Shown: positions 12,979 through 24,399 of the stretch, one piece after another | Layout of the letters: every line of letters starts with the position of its first letter | Position numbering within the stretch: position 1 is the first letter of the stretch | Assembly (NCBI GenBank): GCA_003553795.1 | Contig: PWFH01000195.1 | Coordinates: 1 to 38,394 of the forward strand | Source: Egibacter sp. | GTDB lineage: Bacteria; Actinomycetota; Nitriliruptoria; Euzebyales; Egibacteraceae | Direction of reading: 5' to 3' | Length of the DNA stretch: 38,394 bases | The notes under the pieces: model-generated | What the model saw: only the letters and a program-made list of their open reading frames with translations | Told to the model about the DNA's origin: nothing | Databases searched by the model: none | Made by a program: the position numbers and the translations under genes

Positions 12979-13150
12979 GCGGGTCCCCGCCGCGGCGGTC
13001 CCCGACACCGCCGGCGGCGGCCGGGCCCGCGCGCCGGGGCGTCCCCGGGCCCGTGGGCCGGACGGCCCTGCGCCGCCCGGGCGAGGGTCCCACACCGCCG
13101 TCGGTGGAGCGGGTGCTGCGGTAGCCTTCGGGGCGCACGCGATGCGCGCG
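12979..13150. other. GC-rich gap before the riboflavin operon
   Basis: No gene is visible. It holds several GC-only inverted repeats, the cleanest being GGGCCG-GA-CGGCCC (13055-13068), which might end the rsmB transcript although no T-run follows. TAGCCT (13122-13127) lies about 24 bases before the riboswitch and is a candidate -10, without a convincing -35. Confidence 0.5.
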
Positions 13151-13293
13151 CCTTCGGGGCAGGGTGCAAGTCCCGACCGGCGGTGGCCCGCCTACGAGCG
13201 GGGAGCCCGCGACCCGTCCCAGGACGGTGGATCCGGTGGTGTCCCGACAGGGACCAGGCCGGAGCCGACGGTGAGAGTCCGGAGGAGAGAAGG
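13151..13293 (+). ncRNA. FMN riboswitch (RFN element)
   Basis: The conserved core is almost unchanged: CTTCGGGGCAGGGTGCAAG at the 5' side, CCCGACCGGCGGT, AGCCCGCGA, then GTGGATCCGGTG, GGAGCCGACGGTGAGAGTCC and the closing GGAGAGAAGG. It binds flavin mononucleotide and lowers expression of the downstream ribD-ribE-ribBA-ribH genes. The spacer to ribD (13294-13385) carries the expression platform described separately. Confidence 0.97.
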
Positions 13294-13312
13294 CGTGGTC
13301 GCCAGCGTGGCC

Positions 13313-19741: not shown

Positions 19742-20878
19742 ATGCGCCAGCGTCTCCTCGTCCTGTTGTCCCTGCTGAGTGCCCTCGCCCTGCTCCTCGC
19801 CGCGTGCGACGCCGACATCGCCGACGAGGAGGTCGACGTCGACGACGTCGAGGACGAGCCCGATGAGCCCGATGACGACGACGAGCCCGAGCCCGACATC
19901 GACGAGGGCGACGCCGAGGCCGACCCCGACGCGGAGTCGATCGCGTGGGCGACCTCCGACGTCGGCTCGGCGGGCCACGCCGCGCTCGTCAACCTCTCGG
20001 CGCTGCTGAACCGCGAGTGGGAGGGCTTCCAGACCGACGTCCTGCCGACCGGCGGGGCGGTGCAGAGCGTCGTCGGCTACGCCGAGGGCGACTTCGACGC
20101 CTACTACGGCGCGAACGTCGCTTTCGCCGAGATCGCCGAGGACCGCGATCGCTACGAGGGCTTCGCCGAGGACGCCGAGCGCATGCCGGTGCAGTCCTTC
20201 TGGGCGTACCCGATGGAGACGGGCCTGGCGATCCACGCCGACAACGCCGACGAGTTCACGAGCTGGCGCGACCTCGGCGGTGAGCCCGTCTTCACCGCGC
20301 CGGCGCCGTGGGACGTGCGCGCCAACCTCGAGGCGGCGATGGACGCCATCGACGTCGGCCACGAGTACGTCGAGGTCGACACCGGGGTGGCCGGCAGCTC
20401 TCTCGACACCGGCGACATCTCCGCGATGGTCGCCTACACCTCCTCGGAGATCGCCCCCGCGCCGTGGGTCGTCGAGGCCGAGCTGCAGACCGACCTGCGC
20501 ATCCTCAACCCCACCGACGAGGAGGTCGCCGACATGGAGGCCGCCGGCTTCGAGGTCGTGTCGGTCTCGACCGAAGGCTTCGAGGGCGACGTCGGCACCG
20601 ATGAGATGCTCCTCGTGCCGTTCTTCTACGGCTTCCACGTCGGCATGGAGGTCAGCGAGGAGGACGTCTACGCGATGCTCGACGTCATCGACGAGCACGC
20701 CGAAGAGCTCGCGGCGGCCGACGATGCCTTCAGCGTCCTCGCCGAGGGTCCCGCCGAGCTCCAGCGGCGCGGCGTGGCCTCCGCGGCCGACTACGTCGAG
20801 ATCCACCCCGGCCTCGCGAGCTGGATGCAGGACCAGGGGGTCTGGGACGACGCGTGGGACGACCGCATCGCCCAGTGA
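19742..20878 (+). CDS. TAXI-family TRAP transporter solute-binding lipoprotein
   Basis: A 378-residue extracellular binding protein that hands a solute to the fused TRAP permease encoded next. It has a lipoprotein signal peptide with lipobox LAAC and lipid-bearing Cys22. Residues 23-66 are an extremely acidic linker (mostly D, E and P) before the TAXI domain, which shows VLPTGGAVQSVVGYAEGDFDAYYG and later VPFFYGFHVGMEVSEEDVYAML. The ligand cannot be told; known TAXI proteins bind small organic acids such as glutamate. ATG at 19742 follows AAAGGTG. Confidence 0.88.
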   Translation: MRQRLLVLLSLLSALALLLAACDADIADEEVDVDDVEDEPDEPDDDDEPEPDIDEGDAEADPDAESIAWATSDVGSAGHAALVNLSALLNREWEGFQTDVLPTGGAVQSVVGYAEGDFDAYYGANVAFAEIAEDRDRYEGFAEDAERMPVQSFWAYPMETGLAIHADNADEFTSWRDLGGEPVFTAPAPWDVRANLEAAMDAIDVGHEYVEVDTGVAGSSLDTGDISAMVAYTSSEIAPAPWVVEAELQTDLRILNPTDEEVADMEAAGFEVVSVSTEGFEGDVGTDEMLLVPFFYGFHVGMEVSEEDVYAMLDVIDEHAEELAAADDAFSVLAEGPAELQRRGVASAADYVEIHPGLASWMQDQGVWDDAWDDRIAQ

Positions 20879-20888
20879 GCCGGTGACT

Positions 20889-20928
20889 GGGAGGGAGGGG
20901 GTGGTGTCGCGCCGGCCCCCTCCCTCTC
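20889..20928 (+). other. Strong stem-loop between the TAXI gene and its permease
   Basis: GAGGGAGGGGG (20891-20901) pairs perfectly with CCCCCTCCCTC (20916-20926), an 11-bp stem extendable by G-U and G-C pairs to 13 bp, with a 14-base loop. It is the strongest hairpin I found. There is no T-run. Its position suggests mRNA protection or partial termination that leaves more binding protein than permease. The G-rich arm could also form a quadruplex. Confidence 0.75.
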
Positions 20929-20949
20929 CGCCGCGGCGCGAGGTGAGCC

Positions 20950-23019
20950 ATGGCCACACAGAGCCCTGAGGCAAGGGCCGTCGGCGACGACGGCGGCGAC
21001 GCGCCGCGACCGACGCCGCCGTGGCTCGAGCGCGCTGCGACCGTGGGCTTCTACGTCGTCGGCGTCTTCTTCACCATCGTGCTCCTGCGCTACTACGCCA
21101 CCGGCGCCGGTGGGCCGACGATGCTCGCGGTGGCGATGGTCCCCGTGGCCTACATCGTCGCCACCCTCGACGACATCCGCCTCGGCAAGCTCTACCCGCG
21201 CCTGCCCCCGATGGTCTCCGCCGGCATCGGCGTGGCGCTCATCGCCGTGGCCGTCGTGGCCGGGCTCTACCTCTTCACGAACTTCGAGGCGATCCGCATG
21301 CTGCGGATGGGCCGCTGGACGACCGCCGACCTCGCCGGAGGGGCGGCGCTGACCCTCCTGCTGCTCGAGTACGCCCGGCGCAAGTACCTGCCGCTGTTCA
21401 TCCTCAACGTCGTCCTCGCCCTCTACGTCGTCTACGGCTACGCGGTACCCGGCATGTTCGGGCACTCGGGGATGTCGTGGTCGCGCGTCGTGACGTCGAT
21501 GAGCCTCGAGACGAGCACGGGGATCTTCGAGCAGCTGCCCCAGCTCGCGCTCACGCTCATCGGCTCGTTCATCCTCGTGCTCGCGACGCTGCGCGGCTTC
21601 GGCGCGATCGACTCGATCATCCGCGGGGCGCAGCGCCTCGCGGTGCGCTCGCCTCACCTGCTGCCGCAGGCCGCGGTCATCGGCTCCTTCGGCGTCGCCG
21701 CGGTCAGCGGCAGCGGCGCGGCCAACGCCGCGACGACCGGCTCGGTGACGATCCCCGCGCTCATCAAGTCCGGCATCCCGAAGATCCGCGCCGCGGCGAT
21801 CGAGACCGCGACCTCGCTCGGCGGGCAGCTCATGCCCCCGCTCATGGGCATCGCGGCGTTCCTCATGGCCGACTACATGGGCGTGAGCTACTTCGACGTC
21901 GTCGCGCGCGGCTTCGCCCCGGCGATCATCTACTTCCTCGGCGTGAGCTTCGCGGTCTACCTCCTCGCCGCGCGCTTCAACGCCAAGGGCGCGGTGCCCG
22001 ACGTCTCGCCGCTGACCTTCTTCGACAAGGCCAACCTCCTCGCCTACGCGGTGGCGATCCTCGGGCTCATCTACCTCATGGGCTGGGTGCGGGCCCCCGC
22101 GATGCAGGCCGCCCAGCAGGTCTTCTTCGTCCTCATGGTCGCGCTGACCGCGCTCTTCCTCGCGCGGTCGTTGCCCAGCGCGGAGTACCGCAAGCCGCGC
22201 TACCTCATCGAGCCCTACCAGGGCTTCGTCGAGACCTTCTCGCGCATGACCTCCGAGCTCACGCTGCTGCTGTCGATCCTCGGCCTCGTCACCGCGTCGT
22301 TCACGATCACCGGGGTGCCGACCGCCGTCGGCCAGCTCATGGTCCAGGTCGCGAGCATCAACGTCGTGCTCGTCATCCTCGTGGCGTTCCTCTTCGGCTA
22401 CGTCGTCGGCATGGGCCTGCCGCCCGCGCCGACGTACATCATCGTCGCCGTCGTCATCGCCCCGTTCATGATCCAGATGGGCCTCGACCCCTGGCAGGTC
22501 CACTTCTACGCCTTCCTCATCGCCGCCTTCGGCGAGCTGTCGCCGCCGACGTCGCTCACCGCGGCGGTGACCTCGCGCATCGCCGACGCCTCGTTCATGC
22601 GCACGATGGTCCGCGCGCTCGAGATGGCGCTGCCGCTCCTGCTGCTCATGGTCGCGCTCTTCACCTGGCCGGGGATCGTCATCGAGCCGGGGCTGCCCCA
22701 GGTCGTGCCCTTCGCCTTCGTCCTCGTGGCGATCATCGGCATCATCGCGAGCCTGCAGTCGGTCTTCTCCACCAGTCCCTTGACCCGGCGCGCGCTCAAG
22801 GGCGTGCTCGCGGCCAGTGCCGTGGGCCTGCTGCTGCGGCCGATCCTGCCGGTCGCGCTCGCGCTCGCCGTCGTCGTCGTCGCCCTCGTCGCGCTGGGCT
22901 TCCTGCGCACGCGGGACCAGGCCGCGCGCGAGCTCGCCACGCACCTCGCCGACCAGGAGGGCGGGGACGAGGGGGCCGAGGAGCAGGCCGACGAGGAGGC
23001 CGACGAGCGCCCGACGTGA
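20950..23019 (+). CDS. TRAP transporter fused permease (4TM/12TM)
   Basis: A 689-residue integral membrane protein joining the small and large TRAP subunits, as usual for TAXI systems; it drives solute uptake with an ion gradient. The N-terminal ~150 residues contain about four to five helices. The large subunit carries SGSGAANAATTGSVTIPALIKSG, LGGQLMPPLMGIAAFLMADYMG, VGMGLPPAPTYIIVA and FGELSPPTSLTAAV. After several extra C-terminal helices the protein ends in a ~30-residue acidic tail. ATG follows GCGAGGTGAG, 71 bp after the TAXI stop. Confidence 0.93.
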   Translation: MATQSPEARAVGDDGGDAPRPTPPWLERAATVGFYVVGVFFTIVLLRYYATGAGGPTMLAVAMVPVAYIVATLDDIRLGKLYPRLPPMVSAGIGVALIAVAVVAGLYLFTNFEAIRMLRMGRWTTADLAGGAALTLLLLEYARRKYLPLFILNVVLALYVVYGYAVPGMFGHSGMSWSRVVTSMSLETSTGIFEQLPQLALTLIGSFILVLATLRGFGAIDSIIRGAQRLAVRSPHLLPQAAVIGSFGVAAVSGSGAANAATTGSVTIPALIKSGIPKIRAAAIETATSLGGQLMPPLMGIAAFLMADYMGVSYFDVVARGFAPAIIYFLGVSFAVYLLAARFNAKGAVPDVSPLTFFDKANLLAYAVAILGLIYLMGWVRAPAMQAAQQVFFVLMVALTALFLARSLPSAEYRKPRYLIEPYQGFVETFSRMTSELTLLLSILGLVTASFTITGVPTAVGQLMVQVASINVVLVILVAFLFGYVVGMGLPPAPTYIIVAVVIAPFMIQMGLDPWQVHFYAFLIAAFGELSPPTSLTAAVTSRIADASFMRTMVRALEMALPLLLLMVALFTWPGIVIEPGLPQVVPFAFVLVAIIGIIASLQSVFSTSPLTRRALKGVLAASAVGLLLRPILPVALALAVVVVALVALGFLRTRDQAARELATHLADQEGGDEGAEEQADEEADERPT

Positions 23020-23086: not shown

Positions 23087-23503
23087 ATGAGTGATCCGAG
23101 CCAGCAGGGCCAGCCGAGCCAGGAGGAGATGCAGGCCTACATCGAGCAGTTGCGCGCCGCCGACCCCAGCGAGATCATCGCCCAGGCCTTCACGATGCTC
23201 GGCACCGGCGCGGAGCTCAAGCTCGGGCGGCCTGACGCCCGCGTGCTCATCGACGCCGTCGCCGCGCTCGTCGACACCGTCGGCGACCGGGTCAGCGACG
23301 AGCTGCGCAGTGGCATGGAGAGCGGCCTCGCCCAGCTCCAGCAGGCCCAGGTCCAGGCCGAGCAGCAGGCCGGTGAGGCCGCCAGCGACGCCGCGCCCTC
23401 CGAGCCCGCTGCCGAGGCTCCGCCGGCCTCGCCGCCGCCCTCGCAGAGCCCCGGCCAGGGTGGCAAGTCCAGCGACCGCCTCTGGGTGCCCGGCCGCGAC
23501 TGA
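23087..23503 (+). CDS. DUF1844-like protein
   Basis: A 138-residue protein whose N-terminal ~85 residues (EIIAQAFTMLGTGAELKLG, DARVLIDAVAALVDTVGDRV) look like the DUF1844 family, a small helical protein of unknown function often encoded directly before infC-rpmI-rplT in actinobacteria. The C-terminal ~50 residues are a low-complexity tail of A, P, S, Q and E. ATG at 23087 is chosen because homologous sequence begins there; the ribosome site is weak. Here infC is absent and the next gene is rpmI after a 305-bp gap. Confidence 0.8.
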   Translation: MSDPSQQGQPSQEEMQAYIEQLRAADPSEIIAQAFTMLGTGAELKLGRPDARVLIDAVAALVDTVGDRVSDELRSGMESGLAQLQQAQVQAEQQAGEAASDAAPSEPAAEAPPASPPPSQSPGQGGKSSDRLWVPGRD

Positions 23504-23601: not shown

Positions 23602-23607
23602 TACACT
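23602..23607 (+). promoter_or_regulatory. Candidate -10 for the rpmI-rplT transcript
   Basis: TACACT (23602-23607) matches TANNNT well. No good -35 is seen. A start at about 23614 would fall directly before the first hairpin of the leader. Confidence 0.4.
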
Positions 23608-23613
23608 GCGCCG

Positions 23614-23808
23614 CTGCGGGCCCCGGGCCCGCCCACAACCGCATGAGCAAGCGAGGGGGTCAGCCCCTCCACCCTGCGGGGTCGGTGACGACGCCCAGCA
23701 CGGGTCACGGGACGCCGCGCGCCGCGCGCGTCGTCGCGTCGTGACCCGGCCGCTGCCACGCGCAGCGGCCGTCGTCGTCGCGCCCGCGACGAGCGAAGGA
23801 CCAGCGAC
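23614..23808 (+). ncRNA. Structured 5' leader of rpmI-rplT (putative)
   Basis: The 305-bp gap from 23504 to 23808 has no infC. Five consecutive perfect stems occur: 23616-23622/23626-23632, 23653-23658/23664-23669, 23671-23674/23679-23682, the 9-bp pair CGGGTCACG/CGTGACCCG at 23701-23709/23740-23748 enclosing a GC-rich inner stem, and GGCCGCTG/CAGCGGCC at 23748-23755/23763-23770. An ATG at 23643 opens a 33-codon frame ending at 23744, a possible but unsupported leader peptide. Ribosomal-protein operons often use leader structures for autoregulation, so that is the likely role; I recognise no named family. Confidence 0.4.
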
Positions 23809-24006
23809 ATGCCGAAGCAGAAGACCCACTCGGGCGCGAAGAAGCGCTTCAAGGTCACGAGGAACGGCAAGGTCGTCCACCGCCGCCAGAACAAGAAGCA
23901 CCTCCTCGAGCACAAGCCGTCGAAGCGCAAGCGCCGGCTGTCGAAGCCCGGCGTGCTCGAGGGCGGCGACCGCCGCCAGGTCAACGACCTCCTTGGCCGC
24001 CGCTAG
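23809..24006 (+). CDS. rpmI: 50S ribosomal protein L35
   Basis: A 65-residue, very basic protein of the large ribosomal subunit. MPKQKTHSGAKKRFKVTRNGKV and the lysine/arginine-rich KKHLLEHKPSKRKRRL are typical and the length is exact for the family. GCGAAGGACC precedes the ATG as ribosome site. rplT follows after 33 bp with an almost identical upstream segment. Confidence 0.97.
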   Translation: MPKQKTHSGAKKRFKVTRNGKVVHRRQNKKHLLEHKPSKRKRRLSKPGVLEGGDRRQVNDLLGRR

Positions 24007-24039: not shown

Positions 24040-24399
24040 ATGGCACGCGTCAAGCGCGGCGTCCACGCCCGCAAGCACCGGCGGGCGATCCTCGCCCGCG
24101 CGAAGGGCTTCCGCGGTGCGCGCAGTCGCCGCTACCGCATCGCCAACGAGGCGGTGCTCCACGCGGAGCGCTACGCCTACCGTGACCGCCGCGCCCGCAA
24201 GCGCGACTTCCGGCGCCTGTGGATCACCCGCATCAACGCCGCTGCCCGCCAGGACGGGCTGTCCTACAGCCGCTTCATCCACGGCCTCAAGCGCGCGGAG
24301 ATCGACGTCGACCGCAAGATCCTCGCCGACCTCGCGGTGCGCGACCCCGAGGCGTTCCGCGAGCTCGTGGGCGCGGCCAAGCGCGCCCTCGACGCCTAG
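24040..24399 (+). CDS. rplT: 50S ribosomal protein L20
   Basis: A 119-residue 23S rRNA-binding assembly protein, which in other bacteria also represses its own operon. [30 protein letters not shown]-type N-terminus (basic extension) and the globular part with [16 protein letters not shown] and [13 protein letters not shown] are standard. GCGAAAGGACC lies before the ATG. Confidence 0.97.

Follow-up and report, generated by a model that had tools for sequence, protein, structure and literature searches.

A probable L20 leader before rpmI-rplT in an Egibacter contig and its counterparts in Actinomycetota

The window analysed here is a stretch of 38,394 nucleotides, one contig (G000:C205) of a draft genome in 231 contigs, and it contains a leader in which several hairpins follow one another between a probable promoter and the genes that we take to be rpmI and rplT. 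An earlier note on this DNA had singled out five tandem perfect hairpins and suggested a regulatory RNA, perhaps a site for L20 replacing control through infC. The locus thus raises the question of whether the leader is more than GC-rich DNA that folds easily and, if it is, which ligand it would sense and which gene it would serve. The features on which the argument draws are the following.

23087..23503, + strand: gene 5' of the leader, presumably of the DUF1844 type; the same neighbour stands in many relatives
23602..23607, + strand: probable -10 element, TACACT, read from the sequence
23616..23632, + strand: P0, an optional 7-bp GC hairpin of the MFE structure where the transcript presumably begins (arms 23616-22 and 23626-32, read from the sequence)
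23646..23707, + strand: conserved leader element, probable L20-binding domain (top match of model R1), composed of AAG, hairpin P1 and the CACC...GGU helix P2
23649..23651, + strand: invariant AAG, which contains the AA dimer (39 of 39 rows of alignment A5)
23653..23669, + strand: P1 hairpin, 23653-58 with 23664-69 (6 bp), helix 1 of the covariation analysis
23671..23705, + strand: P2 helix, ACCC-TGC / GCA-c-GGGT, with one bulge, directly 3' of P1
23678..23696, + strand: P3, the apical part of P2, GGGgTCG gtga CGAcgCCC (MFE structure)
23701..23748, + strand: H4, a 9-bp hairpin (arms 23701-09 and 23740-48) that excludes the outer P2 pairs (structure modelling)
23748..23770, + strand: terminator-like hairpin GGCCGCTGC/GCAGCGGCC (arms 23748-56 and 23762-70, 9 bp) with a T-poor tail; pairing probability 0.8-1.0
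23775..23792, + strand: H6, a sixth stem, TCGTCGC/GCGACGA (arms 23775-81 and 23786-92), just 5' of the Shine-Dalgarno sequence (MFE structure)
23795..23800, + strand: GAAGGA, Shine-Dalgarno sequence of rpmI, read from the sequence
23809..24006, + strand: open reading frame that, from its translation, we take to be rpmI (bL35); similar frames lie 5' of rplT in relatives
24040..24399, + strand: open reading frame that we take to be rplT (bL20), gene of the presumed ligand

All five hairpins of the earlier note are present in the sequence, namely P0, P1, a 4-bp stem (23671-74/23679-82, read from the sequence), H4 and the terminator-like hairpin, although the last stem has 9 bp where 8 had been given. 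As a unit the five fare less well. The parts that recur in relatives are P1, P2 and, in 15 of 19 leaders of the order, the last hairpin; both the 4-bp stem and the 9-bp hairpin, H4, are in competition with P2, and H4 is not significantly conserved in 38 leaders (320/5000 permutations as good). By eye, several relatives have another hairpin at the P0 position and others have none, and TANNNT boxes lie near the place of the -10 element in several of them. Folding energy is weak evidence and does not discriminate, being just slightly below what the composition leads one to expect: the leader has a z of -2.6, with 3/200 shuffles as low, and in a scan of 510 windows on both strands (25 shuffles each) 76 had a lower z than the leader, which scored -1.9 there. 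The summed short-loop perfect stems come to 36 bp, a total reached by 0/510 windows and 0/1000 shuffles, with a statistic that was picked post hoc, once the hairpins had been seen.

A shared element was first apparent in the intergenic sequences as AAG, a hairpin, CACC, later GGGTC and then often GGCCGCTGC...GCAGCGGCC. We built a covariance model, R1, from 13 relatives of the order with the window excluded; the seed motif was chosen and its P2 end trimmed by eye, and the E-values are rough owing to a short calibration. The top R1 match in the window is 23646-23707 (35.8 bits, E 1.4e-5), followed by a next best of 13 bits, and this element is the only match at E<=1 across the whole genome (E 0.0011). 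When 66 genomes of the class were searched, all 18 matches at E<=0.004, of which 13 are the R1 seeds and 5 are non-seeds, fell at the rpmI/rplT locus, as did 1 of the 12 weaker matches with checked surroundings. The usual gene arrangement in the order is DUF1844 gene, leader, rpmI, rplT. Among 30 order genomes, 27 have an rplT gene, that of the window being one of them, and 37 other genomes have a product 69-83% identical to that of the window. At 19 of the 27 order rplT loci there is an element match (13 seeds and 6 non-seeds, the window among the 6). The model gave no match at the other eight (L003, L007, L009, L025, L028, L116, L117, L118); L117 is masked where the element would be, and inspection by eye reveals a degenerate motif in L007, L025 and L116 despite the lack of a match.

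These results bear on two readings that would make the leader something other than a binding RNA. That it is GC-rich DNA folding by chance would fit a z of only -2.6 and the 76 of 510 scanned windows with lower values, but chance folding is ruled out for practical purposes because the element is conserved, a model trained without the window having matched it there; the positional specificity of the matches and the covariation described below also speak against it, and we give this reading hardly any credence. The other reading, a leader peptide whose translation is sensed, takes up the 33-codon frame that the earlier note had seen across the first hairpins. The frame exists, opening with ATG 23643 and running across P1-P2, but among 19 order leaders only the window starts at that offset: none of the other 18 has ATG, GTG or TTG there. 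We rejected the leader peptide, as very improbable, on this lack of conservation. L005 and L023 do have an ATG in the frame of the window's 33-codon ORF, at other positions.

The check that the earlier note had proposed, a search of homologous leaders for compensatory changes, found them. Alignment A5 holds 39 actinobacterial sequences, only matches judged true, from 39 sources picked accordingly, and, having been fitted to the structure, it yields counts that are biased in favour of that structure: 96.3% of its cells are paired (83.0 +/- 1.1 shuffled; 33.9-54.8% in slid controls) and 52 cells have both sides changed (15.2 +/- 2.9 shuffled). An earlier alignment, A4, still includes the wrong row from L032. 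P1 is paired in 100% of scored A5 cells, double changes occur in 5 of its 6 pairs, and the window has its own variant of it, GAGGGG/CCCCTC. The ACC/GGT of P2 is invariant in 39/39 rows, an invariance that says nothing about pairing. The next two P2 pairs covary, yet are broken in 15 cells. A swap test of the inner P2 pairs in 45 sequences gave 92/135 against 76.4 +/- 4.1 (5/10000); it included four Firmicute leaders, its automatic choice of the P2 strand was wrong in L026 and L027, and it left out L017 and five false R1 matches. Those five, false by strand or shape among 51 R1 matches in the search of the named loci and the order, are one in L032 and two in L023 on the wrong strand and palindromic partials in L020 and L021; they were also excluded when the leaders were compared by eye. 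The length and sequence of P3 differ among relatives.

The plan of the element is that of Rfam RF00558, L20_leader, the B. subtilis infC leader. Common to both are the order AAG-hairpin-C-[g/A]CC...GG[c/U], with a terminator next in RF00558 and a terminator-like hairpin next in 15 of 19 order leaders, a position before an operon that ends in rpmI-rplT (infC-rpmI-rplT for RF00558) and, in relatives of the window, complementarity between the P1 loop and the terminator 5' arm. In three Firmicute leaders aligned to RF00558 the AAG is followed by a 6-bp hairpin, C, a CC...GG helix and a terminator; the window has the AAG, the 6-bp hairpin, the C and the CC...GG helix, and its AAG coincides in position with that of the RF00558 consensus. 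The actinobacterial element differs in its GC-rich consensus, in scoring below the cut-off of the Rfam model and in standing, within the order, mostly directly before rpmI without infC. RF00558 itself has no match in the window at the Rfam gathering score (58.7 bits) or at E<=10, and a search of the window region with all of Rfam at E<=10 returned five unrelated matches, all below cut-off and none of them L20_leader; the same search of 12 relatives at E<=1 gave one weak, unrelated match. Over cut-off, RF00558 matched 0/20 actinobacterial infC loci and 0/66 class genomes. Its sole match at E<=10 in those 66 is the G006 element (E 0.79, a weak score), where the place counts rather than the score; at that threshold the model also fires in 9/14 control genomes, 2 of them over cut-off. 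R1 in turn matches two of the three RF00558 leaders (L065 and L095) at the RF00558 position and misses the third (L075), and it also matches L069 and L070, both without a match at Rfam's cut-off. By its plan, then, the element is very likely a variant of the L20 leader that would work like one, and it is not an Rfam member by score. The compensatory changes, the plan in common with RF00558 and the position before infC-rpmI-rplT or rpmI-rplT bear out the earlier suggestion of a regulatory RNA, and the same support makes an L20 site probable. Direct mimicry of 23S rRNA was dropped as an argument: the genome's 23S CTAAGTGGGAAAGG, which we assume to belong to the L20 site, resembles AAGTGGGA, but AAG[TC]GG occurs at eight places in the 5.1-kb locus.

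Which gene the leader serves can be approached through infC. In other families of the class the arrangement is infC-rpmI-rplT in 7/7 loci examined, and elsewhere in Actinomycetota the element lies 5' of infC-rpmI-rplT. Within the order infC stands between leader and rpmI in 3 of 27 genomes (L008, L011, L013), and there the same element precedes infC, contrary to the idea that it replaces control through infC. The infC of the window's genome is on another contig, behind rpmG and without an element before it. IF3 matches occur in 22 of 30 order genomes, 3 in the operon and 20 outside, with G002 having both; rpmG is 5' of the outside infC in 17 of 21 loci, one partial copy included. In an IF3 tree, which was midpoint-rooted and warns of long branches, the 20 outside copies form one clade (100/100) apart from the order's operon copies, and the latter group with class copies (99/94). 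From these clades and loci we infer that a divergent infC took the place of the native one and that the element stayed with rpmI-rplT. The outside set comprises L001/L112 (G000:C93) and L169-L188, and G002 retains both types.

A second model, R2, whose seeds include the window's order, was run on the 22 stretches with an outside infC, which represent 21 copies, as L001 and L112 overlap, in 20 genomes. A credible element before the outside infC was found in 0/20 order genomes at E<=1. Three matches were taken as chance: one in L186 (29.5 bits) that falls within a long open frame ~400 bases 5', one in L171 (14.7 bits) straddling the end of the gene before rpmG and one in L112 (13.2 bits) on the opposite strand within infC. 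An element kept before rpmI-rplT and absent before the displaced infC speaks for L20 (or L35) and against IF3 as the ligand; the absence of an operon infC in the order separates the leader's target from IF3. The window leader looks like an inherited infC-operon leader that was retained. As a separate observation, L183 and L185 (family f3) have GGGTC[GA]AGCCTTTACCTTGTGCG[GC]AGGTGGGTACACCAT ~80-120 bases 5' of the displaced infC, unlike the L20 element; the two are very close relatives, and a common stretch may mean little.

Beyond the order, 31 of 80 named loci are labelled Actinomycetota or a group within it (by count), and 23 of these 31 have the element 5' of infC, on the infC strand, at E<=1. 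R1 found 17, none of them an R1 seed, as the seeds are all from the window's order, and R2 found 6 more; both models missed it in L033, L034, L038, L059, L061, L062, L072 and L107. Against 296 genomes of the phylum R2 gave a match at E<=0.01 in 27, and 26 of the 27 lie at an infC/rpmI-rplT locus; the window's own genome is not among them. The matches outside the class, 12/13 of them at an infC or rpmI locus, weigh most because the R2 seeds include the window's order. The low share of 27/296 may reflect the short model, the strict filters and cut-off, or real absence. R2 had 0 matches at E<=1 in 33 proteobacterial and deltaproteobacterial loci. In L051, labelled Acidobacteria, the element precedes infC and the IF3 falls among actinobacterial ones in the tree, which makes L051 either a mislabelled bin or a case of transfer.

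One plan thus spans many actinobacterial families and matches that of Firmicutes, and the standard model misses it at its cut-off. The excerpted literature portrays r-protein leaders as in general of limited spread and L20 structures as differing from group to group (PMC7247131, PMC6097659, PMC3766115), and the L20 motif as apparently confined to Firmicutes, though also found in Thermotogales (PMC3766115). We consider it evenly balanced whether one ancestral L20 leader was common to Bacillota and Actinomycetota and, in this order, outlived the replacement of the native infC, with the element serving rpmI-rplT. If so, the first part would contradict the published confinement, and the second would amount to a natural experiment in which rpmI-rplT, and not infC, proves to be what the element serves. 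A deltaproteobacterial L20 leader candidate is likewise said to have two G-C pairs and an AA dimer of the rRNA site and is set apart by its description, in the excerpted text, as another scaffold (PMC7247131). In E. coli L20 also represses rpmI-rplT, but, according to the excerpt, translationally and through a long-range pseudoknot in the operon mRNA (PMC10931766). M. tuberculosis, also an actinobacterium, has a long 5' UTR before infC that its authors likened to the systems of E. coli and B. subtilis, and the excerpted text describes no L20 motif there (PMC3207917); the element offers a ready hypothesis for such long infC leaders in Actinomycetota. PMC4137082, as excerpted, mentions L20 merely as an example. 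Our literature search recognised no actinobacterial L20 leader in the excerpts returned, part of which were swamped by unrelated papers.

How the leader would act is best judged from the last hairpin. Of the 15 order leaders with this GGCCGC-type hairpin, 10 have at least 5 T in the next 12 bases; the corresponding count in the window is 3. Among relatives, the terminator 5' arm can pair with the complementary P1 loop (e.g., L115, GGGAGCG with CGCTCCC), and in a swap test of 46 leaders their own pairings summed to -555.8 kcal/mol against -492.4 +/- 16.4 kcal/mol for swapped ones (0/5000), a test that ignores phylogeny, includes four Firmicute leaders, leaves out five false R1 matches and uses automatically picked terminators that are doubtful in several rows. 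In the window P1 has changed, and its complementarity to the terminator is weak (-11.8 kcal/mol); H4 competes with the outer P2 pairs, the P1+P2 conformation lies 1.4 kcal/mol above the MFE, and the terminator hairpin is kept in both modelled conformations.

We consider it probable that the leader is an autogenous L20 leader working by L20-dependent attenuation, which appears to be the likeliest mechanism; L20 as the ligand, termination as the output and the direction of the switch are all suggested by the comparison. Transcription would begin near 23614, and the nascent RNA would fold P1 and P2, with the invariant AAG and ACC/GGU placed at the junction of the two. Free bL20 in excess of its rRNA sites would bind this junction and favour an arrangement in which the GGCCGCTGC hairpin stops transcription before rpmI-rplT, and when L20 is scarce an alternative pairing would let the polymerase proceed. 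For the window, H4 may take the role of alternative partner instead of the P1 loop; as a conserved antiterminator H4 was rejected on its non-significant conservation, which leaves it a possibility for the window alone.

Two other readings keep the element and change its output or its ligand. It may bind L20 and act on translation or RNA stability, by pairing near the Shine-Dalgarno sequence (H6 and its neighbours) or by competition with the ribosome, in the manner of E. coli; the last hairpin would then be no working terminator here. The T-poor tail, the weak P1 antiterminator of the window and a terminator hairpin that forms in both conformations would suit this, as would H6 abutting the Shine-Dalgarno sequence; a clear terminator hairpin is also absent in L020, L021, L023 and L024, all of one family, though the element is present, which speaks against attenuation as a rule. 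Set against these are the GGCCGC-type hairpins of 15 of 19 order leaders, 10 of the 15 with at least 5 T in 12, and the B. subtilis leader, which in the excerpted account works by termination (PMC6097659), and we hold the translational or stability reading to be unlikely, if worth keeping in mind. The ligand, in turn, could be IF3, L35 or another factor: binding by L20 is presumed, and L35 is encoded first in the operon. IF3 fits poorly with infC genes that lie outside the operon without a credible element before them, and the match to the RF00558 plan counts against any ligand other than L20, so that we rate this reading as more doubtful still. Attenuation by L20 is the account that we prefer.

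Some minor observations remain. In L016/L017 CGCGAGTC, 5' of P1, is by eye the complement of GACTCGCG, which lies in the loop of P2, so that this genus may have one more pairing over a long distance. Elsewhere in the window, an FMN riboswitch (Rfam RF00050, 76.3 bits) lies at 13146-13298 on the + strand, and two ORFs at 19742-23019, also on the + strand, resemble what we take to be a TRAP-type transporter (receptor and fused permease).
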